64,000 nucleotides of DNA from contig JAMDCP010000002.1 of NCBI GenBank assembly GCA_023489335.1, forward strand, positions 124,001 to 188,000. Direction: 5' to 3'. A program made the position numbers and the translations under genes. This DNA comes from Deltaproteobacteria bacterium. Its GTDB lineage: Bacteria; SZUA-79; Acidulodesulfobacterales; Acidulodesulfobacteraceae. Numbering within the stretch: the first letter of the stretch is position 1; the number at the start of each line of letters is the position of its first letter. Under the pieces are notes generated by a model, which saw only the letters and a program-made list of their open reading frames with translations, was not told the DNA's origin and did not search any database. Below, piece by piece: positions 21,580-56,357 of the stretch.

Positions 21580-21654
21580 TGGGGCGTCGACAAGCGGCAA
21601 GTCACAGGATTTTGATTCCTGCATTCGGAGGTTCGAATCCTCCCGCCCCAGCCA
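21580..21654 (+). tRNA. tRNA-Gln (UUG)
   Basis: Cloverleaf with acceptor TGGGGCG/CGCCCCA, D-arm with GCGG, anticodon loop around TTTTGAT giving UUG, T-arm GGAGGTTCGAATCCTCC, discriminator G and encoded CCA. 75 nt. A repeat unit that re-creates its 3-prime end follows directly. Confidence 0.96.
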
Positions 21655-21796
21655 GTAGAATGTAAGACGAGAGCAGTAAATTAGATTAACAATATTGCAG
21701 GTTGGGCGATCATGAGCATATCTTTGACCGCGTGCTTATAAAAGCCGAAGGCTTTTATAGCGGCAAAGATGCGAATCATCCTTCCGCCCCCAGCCA
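21655..21796 (+). repeat. tRNA tail element behind tRNA-Gln (one copy, 142 nt)
   Basis: Begins right after the tRNA CCA and ends with a second copy of the tRNA-Gln 3-prime end in diverged form (CCGCCCCCAGCCA; upstream GAATCATCC resembles the T-arm GAATCCTCC). Inside is a long imperfect hairpin, ATCTTTG...CAAAGAT, capped by TATAAAAGCCGAAGGCTTTTATA with a GAA triloop. Length and architecture match the elements behind both tRNA-Ser genes, though most of the sequence differs. The prs gene starts 13 bases after its end. Confidence 0.75.
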
Positions 21797-30381: not shown

Positions 30382-30708
30382 TTATTTTCTTTAATAATAA
30401 TTATAAGTAATAAGTTAATTTAATTATAAATGTTTCATTATAAATAATTAATAATTACATATAATATAGATATGGTAATATAGATATAGCAATATAGATA
30501 TAGAGTAATACCGATATAGAAGAATTTAAAGGGGAAAATACTTTCTAATGCAGGATTAATCAAAAATAAATCGGATACCTTTTTAGGATATTGCTTGCGT
30601 TTATAAAACCAACGGTTTTATGCAGGCAAAGATGGGCGGGGTATTTATAAAAAAAATAAAAAAAAAGATATCTGATTTATTTCATTTAATTGGAAAAAAT
30701 AAAAAGGG
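30382..30708. other. AT-rich intergenic region without a gene
   Basis: No convincing coding sequence on either strand. It holds simple ATATAG-type repeats near 30460-30510 and one isolated palindromic element at 30589-30640; otherwise I see nothing in it. Confidence 0.6.
30589..30640 (+). repeat. Solitary relative of the tRNA-Gln tail hairpin
   Basis: Hairpin ATAAAACC-AAC-GGTTTTAT flanked by TTGC and GGCAAAGATG. The layout and the GGCAAAGATG end match the hairpin of the tRNA-Gln tail element (TATAAAAGCC-GAA-GGCTTTTATA then GGCAAAGATG at about 21760-21772), but no tRNA end is attached. Confidence 0.6.
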
Positions 30709-30993
30709 GGCGGAGAGAGAGGGATGAGCGTCCTTCGGACGCTAAAAGAAACGAACTTCCCCTTGCGGGCTTCGCCCTTACCGGGGGTTCGAACCCCTCT
30801 CTTACTTATAATAACGAATCTTATGTATAATATTACTTTTTTTAAATAACTGGCGGAGAGAGAGGGATGAGCGTCCTTCGGACGCTAAAAGAAACGAACT
30901 TCCCCTTGCGGGCTTCGCCCTTACCGGGGGTTCGAACCCCTCTCTTACTTATAATAACGAATCTTATGTATAATATTACTTTTTTTAAATAAC
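30709..30993 (-). repeat. Two tandem tail elements (143 nt each) behind tRNA-Ser(UGA)
   Basis: Two units, identical in my reading, with period 143 directly after the tRNA-Ser CCA on the minus strand. Each unit, read in tRNA sense, has an AT-rich spacer of about 45 nt, then AGAGAGGGGTTCGAACCCCC (which is the reverse complement of a tRNA-Ser T-arm), a GGGCGAAGCCC hairpin, an AGCGTCC-GAA-GGACGCT hairpin and a final copy of the tRNA 3-prime end ATCCCTCTCTCTCCGCCA. The outer AGAGAGGG and CCCTCTCT ends can pair. The core is shared with the tail of tRNA-Ser(CGA). Confidence 0.85.
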
Positions 30994-31082
<89 letters not shown>

Positions 31083-55928: not shown

Positions 55929-56020
55929 GGAGAGATGGCCGAGTCCGGTTGAAGGCGATTGACTCGAAATCAATTGTAGGCGCAAGCTTACCGGGGGTTC
56001 GAATCCCTCTCTCTCCGCCA
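55929..56020 (+). tRNA. tRNA-Ser (CGA)
   Basis: Class II tRNA of 92 nt: acceptor GGAGAGA/TCTCTCC, anticodon loop CTCGAAA (CGA), variable arm GTAGGCGCAAGCTTAC, T-arm GGGGGTTCGAATCCCTC, discriminator G and encoded CCA. Two tandem tail elements follow directly. Confidence 0.95.
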
Positions 56021-56318
56021 GTTAAAAGTAAAACAGTTAGTTTTTAATATAAAGCAGGTAAAGGCAAGTCAGAGAGGGGTTTGAACCCCCGGTAAGGGCG
56101 AAGCCCGCAAGGGGAAGTTCGAACGCTTTAAAACTTTCCGAAGGAAAGTTCATCCCTCTCTCTCCGCCAGTTAAAAGTAAAACAGTTAGTTTTTAATATA
56201 AAGCAGGTAAAGGCAAGTCAGAGAGGGGTTTGAACCCCCGGTAAGGGCGAAGCCCGCAAGGGGAAGTTCGAACGCTTTAAAACTTTCCGAAGGAAAGTTC
56301 ATCCCTCTCTCTCCGCCA
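56021..56318 (+). repeat. Two tandem tail elements (149 nt each) behind tRNA-Ser(CGA)
   Basis: Units 56021-56169 and 56170-56318 are identical in my reading; a third unit begins (about 12 nt) and then diverges. Each has an AT-rich spacer of about 50 nt, AGAGAGGGGTTTGAACCCCC (near-exact antisense of this tRNA's T-arm), a GGGCGAAGCCC hairpin, an AACTTTCC-GAA-GGAAAGTT hairpin and a closing copy of the tRNA 3-prime end (ATCCCTCTCTCTCCGCCA). The 51-nt core matches the tail elements of tRNA-Ser(UGA), on the opposite strand. Confidence 0.88.
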
Positions 56319-56357
56319 GTTAAAAGTAAACATCCCTTCTCTTTCGCTGTTTTGGAT

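Follow-up and report, generated by a model that had tools for sequence, protein, structure and literature searches.

Tandem structured repeats behind tRNA genes of a deltaproteobacterium resemble the tRNA-linked repeats of Escherichia coli

Behind a tRNA-Ser gene in the window, a stretch of 64,000 nucleotides from a Deltaproteobacteria bacterium (assembly GCA_023489335.1, contig JAMDCP010000002.1, positions 124,001 to 188,000), lies a group of hairpins that a first-pass annotation had read as a selected RNA structure, as their stems differ between copies behind different tRNAs and still pair. The locus thus raises the question of what these hairpins belong to and whether their pairing reflects a function in RNA. 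The element first noted (56070-56169) is part of one of two identical tandem units of 149 nt (56021-56318). Units of this kind in the window are 142-149 nt long, each directly 3′ of its tRNA, and we list them as TLR units after the tRNA-linked repeats of E. coli that they resemble.

Repeat units in the window and their predicted fold

The features of the three loci are as follows.

55929..56020, + strand: host gene tRNA-Ser(CGA) (ARAGORN, Rfam tRNA)
56021..56169, + strand: TLR unit 1 behind tRNA-Ser(CGA), 149 nt, terminating with the tRNA 3′ end (tandem repeat finder)
56070-56169, + strand: folded core of this unit, after the spacer
56071..56096, + strand: inverted copy of the T-arm and part of the variable arm, Ser-CGA unit (24/26 nt; above 100/100 shuffles)
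56096..56106, + strand: hairpin C of the Ser-CGA unit, GGGC-GAA-GCCC (three of four pairs covary, E<0.05)
56111..56121, + strand: direct T-stem 5′ strand with an AA bulge, GGGG-AA-GTTCG, predicted to pair with the inverted arm
56132..56150, + strand: hairpin D, AACTTTCC-GAA-GGAAAGTT, replacing the T-loop (three pairs covary; shuffle control)
56152..56169, + strand: copy of the tRNA-Ser 3′ end in the Ser-CGA unit, ATCCCTCTCTCTCCGCCA, identical to the tRNA end
56170..56318, + strand: TLR unit 2 behind tRNA-Ser(CGA), equal to unit 1 in sequence
56319..56330, + strand: start of a third spacer copy, a truncated unit at the end of the Ser-CGA array (GTTAAAAGTAAA repeated)
30994..31082, − strand: host gene tRNA-Ser(UGA) (ARAGORN, Rfam tRNA)
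30851..30993, − strand: TLR unit 1 behind tRNA-Ser(UGA), 143 nt (tandem repeat finder)
30870-30886, − strand: hairpin D of that unit, AGCGTCC-GAA-GGACGCT
30708..30850, − strand: TLR unit 2 behind tRNA-Ser(UGA), 143 nt, last base differing
21580..21654, + strand: host gene tRNA-Gln(UUG) (ARAGORN, Rfam tRNA)
21655..21796, + strand: single TLR unit behind tRNA-Gln(UUG), 142 nt
21718..21773, + strand: dispersed palindrome region within the Gln unit (as a query, it matches many other genome sites in the phylum)
21737-21759, + strand: Gln hairpin TATAAAAGCC-GAA-GGCTTTTATA, within the nested palindrome
21778-21796, + strand: copy of the tRNA-Gln 3′ end closing the Gln unit, slightly altered here (exact in the equivalent L132 unit)

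Among 41 tRNA loci screened in the 1.8-Mb genome, one of them at a contig end with its downstream side unreadable, the repeat was found at three only, and at gathering level Rfam matched tRNAs and no other family in the window. By eye, tyrosine-recombinase-like reading frames lie downstream of many tRNA genes of genome G000 (for example L001, L010, L013, L021, L027).

The Ser units follow one order: an AT-rich spacer of about 50 nt, an inverted T-arm, hairpin C, the 5′ strand of a direct T-stem, hairpin D and the 3′ end of the host tRNA up to CCA. The inverted T-arm copy (AGAGAGGGGTTTGAACCCCCGGTAAG) extends into the variable arm and exceeded 100 of 100 shuffles in every Ser unit of family f1 tested, as did that of the E. 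coli RtT RNA. A copied tRNA 3′ end closes all complete units examined; it is 18 nt long in the Ser-CGA unit, and units at other loci likewise end in the tail of their own host. In the fold predicted for the Ser-CGA core, the outer arms pair with each other, the inverted arm pairs with the direct T-stem strand, and hairpins form at C and D (−43.8 kcal/mol, z −3.7, better than 200 of 200 shuffles); against shuffles, the Ser-UGA and Gln folds reach z −3.4 and −4.2.

The three hairpins named in the first-pass annotation are present exactly (Ser-CGA, 56132-56150, +; Ser-UGA, 30870-30886, −; Gln, 21737-21759, +), and so is the second GAA triloop hairpin, GGGC-GAA-GCCC, at 56096-56106. The ends AGAGAGGG and CCCTCTCT, proposed to close the element, do occur, but their outer pairs are kept in only about half of the units, while the inner GGAT/ATCC pairs are retained. 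The tip had been called invariant, which does not extend to the other units: GAA is common, and AAA, TTAA, CTAA, TTT, TT, GCA or a hairpin of about 50 nt also stand at the tip of D. This extra hairpin (ATACGTAAGCAGGCGTTTACAAAAGC...) is the same in L070, L072, L080 and L128, from two genera. A variant unit tail, CTCTCTTAAGCC instead of CTCTCTCCGCC, was seen in L097, L122 and L128, with a remnant in L043, and recurs at different Ser tRNAs of different genomes.

The Gln hairpin, which had been placed at the same position as the Ser hairpins, belongs instead to a palindromic repeat dispersed over many other genome sites, so that these hairpins do not represent one stem evolving by compensation; a common stem for the Ser and Gln hairpins is ruled out by this dispersed apex. 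The palindrome (ATCTTTGACCGC...GCGGCAAAGAT, with a GCCGAAGGC tip), at 21718-21773 of the window inside the Gln unit, has further sites at G000 C1:193347, C12:19987, C18:17815 and C19:68652, and about 20 in G022.

The inverted arm could in principle act on the tRNA itself, as a switch in which it pairs with the T-arm and variable arm of the tRNA while the unit tail takes the acceptor strand, blocking maturation conditionally. When tRNA and unit are folded jointly, the predictions prefer such pairing by 12-17 kcal/mol for Ser-CGA, Ser-UGA, the Ser-GGA locus of G023 and E. coli tyrV with RtT, and the inverted arm reaches into the variable arm past the unit's own copy. However, a tRNA is made, and able to fold, ahead of its trailer, no cross pairing is predicted for the window's Gln unit, and a long inverted arm is absent from the Gln, Asn and Tyr units as a group, and we regard a switch as very unlikely.

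Relatives and the tRNA-linked repeats of E. coli

A covariance model built from 21 cores gave 79 matches in 21 of 30 genomes of this phylum, all in family f1; among 386 genomes, the only match outside f1 was at chance level and had no tRNA. The f1 matches inspected lie behind Ser tRNAs with anticodons CGA, UGA, GCU and GGA, in arrays of one to four units that are mostly identical and sometimes mixed, numbers that come from metagenome bins, where tandem copies of about 150 bp may be misassembled, while the E. coli comparison uses a finished genome. Some arrays close with truncated units whose junctions to a similar flank differ in position. The junction at the tRNA end is exact: one tRNA site holds two units in L033 and is empty in L050, both going on as CCA|TTTACTCCGCC, and another site holds one unit in L132 and none in L156, both going on as CCA|AAAGGAAAAAT.

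A shorter form of 90-93 nt, built on one 23-nt core (GATCACGACCGAAGGGAGTCATC), lies behind Gln(UUG), Gln(CUG), Asn(GUU) and Tyr(GUA) tRNAs; every unit carries the end of its own host tRNA, and the core is kept across these four tRNAs and several genera. In G006, the spacer of the Gln unit is related to that of the Tyr unit. A search of 84,980 named genomes for a 24-nt Gln/Asn/Tyr core gave 15 stretches, all of them from bacterial MAGs, and viral contigs and phage records gave no match to the units. In a third group, f92, units of about 200 nt with host-matched arms lie behind four Ser tRNAs. The interior of the f92 unit (AAGATACC...GCCGTCGNAGACGGC...GCGGGACACGCG) is a dispersed repeat as well (L227-L243; G120, G388-G390), with a tRNA in the stretch at one of 17 sites read and no Rfam match at gathering level. 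A generic pattern, CCGAAGGG...GAGTMATCC, which misses minimal units where its halves overlap, gave six chance matches in 386 genomes and no TLR.

In E. coli, TLRs have been known since 1978; 22 copies at ten loci repeat, in their last 18-19 bp, the end of the tRNA or rRNA that precedes them, and an early functional claim was withdrawn, with no function established (PMC8144298). For some E. coli TLRs, transcription together with the preceding gene and processing into a defined RNA have been shown. The units described here share their place directly behind a tRNA, the last 17-18 nt equal to its end, tandem copies and a hairpin interior. All complete units examined (Ser, Gln, Asn, Tyr) lie just downstream of their host gene; the 3′ end identity of 18-19 bp in the TLR definition corresponds to 18 nt in the Ser-CGA units and to the host's own tail at the other loci, slightly altered in the window's Gln unit and exact in L132; one to four tandem copies, as counted in bins of uncertain copy number, compare with one to five in the TLR definition. 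The E. coli TLRs of lysQ, lysV and tyrV are built of an inverted T-arm, a direct T-stem, hairpins and the tRNA end, as are the Ser units. In contrast to the E. coli TLRs, the present units belong to another phylum, have four Ser, two Gln and an Asn tRNA as hosts, and their interiors cannot be aligned by Rfam.

Most of the Gln, Asn and Tyr units share a GA-clamped hairpin with the E. coli TLRs, whereas the Ser units have no such clamp. The motif GA-stem-loop-stem-GA-RU(C/A), just 5′ of the host AUCC, occurs in 10 of 10 E. coli TLRs extracted, in 21 of 23 Gln/Asn/Tyr units and in none of 39 Ser units; its frequency in shuffles was 0.5%, a rate that is not blind, since the motif was defined after some of the sequences had been viewed. 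The stems within the motif differ and yet pair (GC/GC, GAC/GUC, GCC/GGC, AGCGC/GCGCU, CC/GG). A tandem G-A motif had previously been noted in RtT (PMC7657543).

RtT RNA (RF00391), which lies in three tandem copies behind E. coli tRNA-Tyr, had been suggested for comparison, and it proved the right comparator in plan, with the same order of spacer, inverted T-arm, direct T-stem, hairpins and tRNA end, but not in score: the best match in the phylum reached 20.2 bits against a gathering cut-off of 45, and none lay in the window. The model gave 11 weak matches in the phylum, of which six coincide with the units described here and a further two with TLR-type units behind tRNA-Tyr. The full RtT plan, with hairpins at the T-loop, is found in the Ser units and not in the minimal Gln/Asn/Tyr units. 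Repeat-number variation at rtT RNA has been listed in Salmonella (PMC2658671). Taken together, the units fit the TLR definition where it is testable and stand outside the RtT family as Rfam defines it. They appear to be distant cousins of the E. coli repeats, extending TLRs to other phyla; this extension is new here, as is the GA motif common to E. coli TLRs and the Gln/Asn/Tyr units.

The rRNA-operon TLRs RrA, RrB and RrF likewise repeat the 3′ end of the stable RNA that precedes them and have a structured interior, but they lie behind 5S rRNA between two terminators, and CsrA and Hfq binding is described for them. RrB RNA is transcribed and processed and binds both proteins, its copied end being proposed as an RNase E signal (PMC8144298). 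The role proposed for the E. coli rrB TLR, that of a CsrA or Hfq sponge, would also be conceivable in this genome, which encodes CsrA, but G006 and G007, which are 99-100% complete, have units and no detectable CsrA, which makes a CsrA sponge unlikely as a general role; overall we give the sponge the lowest likelihood of the roles considered. 3′ETS-leuZ and other tRNA trailer RNAs would resemble the units as RNA derived from a tRNA trailer, if the units are transcribed; 3′ETS-leuZ sponges other sRNAs and is described without a copied tRNA end or tandem repeats in PMC8144298. The Rfam sRNA family sX4 matches tRNA-Ser plus trailer below its cut-off of 70 (L162:1366-1527 and L169:1372-1527, 34.8 and 19.7 bits), and the family itself may contain a tRNA-Ser with a trailer.

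Covariation and exchange of stems

Covariation was measured on 49 distinct units, which are non-independent where they come from one array or genus, with our own implementation of the R-scape idea, in which substitutions were redistributed along a FastTree topology in 60 null alignments. The expectation that more copies would show covariation was borne out in seven of 24 pairs with E<0.05, three each in C and D and one in B, all seven scoring above the strongest pair outside the helices. A simpler count agrees, with 87% of cells paired, against 80.3% after shuffling and 29-53% after sliding, a percentage that is biased for hairpin D, which was aligned on the best hairpin of each unit. The control free of this bias, on whole D inserts, agrees with the expected pairing, as 30 of 37 distinct inserts have at least seven Watson-Crick pairs compared with 1.8% of shuffles.

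The covariation claimed as a signature of RNA function exceeds a tree-based null, yet for the most part it reflects whole stems being replaced. Within hairpin C, the two strands were altered on the same branch 6-9 times per pair against 0-2 single-sided changes, with GGGC/GCCC, GCGC/GCGC and GCCC/GGGC as stem versions, indicating that these stems are replaced as blocks. Elements that exchange stems, which the first-pass annotation had offered as its alternative, fit these changes at least as well as stepwise RNA compensation does. Among single-sided changes on the tRNA strand, G-U exceeded A-C by 17 to 7 (p = 0.064), which hints weakly at constraint in RNA and is no proof of it. Apparent RNA covariation can come from swapped whole hairpins, a caution for structure searches in general.

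Block exchange could also come from a non-autonomous DNA element, in which folded single-stranded hairpins would serve a recombinase or transposase in trans at the tRNA 3′ end and RNA would be a by-product. The exact presence or absence at the tRNA end, the nested hairpins and dispersed palindromes inside units and the stem exchange are consistent with this, as are the loops of hairpin C, which are of the types C-GNA-G and C-GNNA-G (including GATA, GTCA, GTTA and GACA); loops of these two types are classes of stable DNA loops. On the other hand, no recombinase is tied to the units, every copy has the tRNA end of its own host, which an element with fixed ends would not, the viral and phage sequences searched have no match, and the G-U bias favours RNA, and we judge such an element unlikely, though deserving more weight than the other alternatives.

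The same stems might arise with no selected function at all, through fold-back copying and tandem duplication, with template switching in imperfect palindromes keeping stems matched. Host tRNA arms present as direct and as inverted copies, simultaneous two-sided changes and truncated units would all be expected from such copying, but the plan is conserved in E. coli and here, with the GA motif in common, and the 23-nt core persists behind four tRNAs in several genera, which makes a purely mutational origin improbable in our assessment.

Units as candidate tRNA trailer modules

We consider it reasonably probable that the units are TLRs in the sense of structured modules in tRNA 3′ trailers, released by tRNA 3′ processing. 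This reading draws on the copied tRNA ends and the exact empty and filled sites (L050 against L033, L156 against L132), on covariation above the tree null, the hairpin shuffle control and the G-U excess, on the plan shared with tyrV, lysQ and lysV, the GA motif counts and the six of 11 weak RtT matches that fall on units, and on the annotated end of E. coli RtT, the processing of RrB (PMC8144298) and the two Ser loci, whose tRNA strand showed no terminator-like site. Against it, the block replacement in hairpin C could come from DNA exchange alone, the G-U bias lies above 0.05 and the Ser units have no GA motif. Since units are often truncated or absent, any role would be dispensable.

Under the trailer reading, tRNA and downstream units would be transcribed together. 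Neither Ser locus showed a terminator-like site on the tRNA strand at its units, from which we infer that tRNA and units probably form one transcript; the hairpins were rejected as terminators on the same ground. The copied AUCC...CCA end would be read by the tRNA 3′ processing machinery, RNase E and trimming exonucleases, and each unit would be freed as a separate, folded RNA whose tail resembles that of a tRNA. Release at the copied end is suggested by analogy, as the RtT RNA annotated in E. coli ends at the CCA of its unit and an RNase E signal was proposed for RrB (PMC8144298). Copy number and spread among tRNA genes may result from recombination at the directly repeated tRNA ends, and trailer processing itself would be the most economical guess at a role for the freed RNA.

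The TLR plan appears in two further bacterial groups, in each with arms that match the host tRNA, and one of these groups shares the GA-clamped hairpin; the comparison shows what tRNA-linked repeats have in common across phyla. As a tentative idea, to which we give rather less than even weight, TLRs over several phyla might form a class of tRNA-dependent genetic elements. Each would be a module with an exchangeable hairpin, clamped by GA or flanked by T-arms, that passes from one tRNA gene to another, copies its ends afresh from every tRNA it joins and relies on host tRNA processing for release of its RNA. Comparison across groups separates the conserved from the variable parts of TLRs and so gives experimenters targets for mutation.
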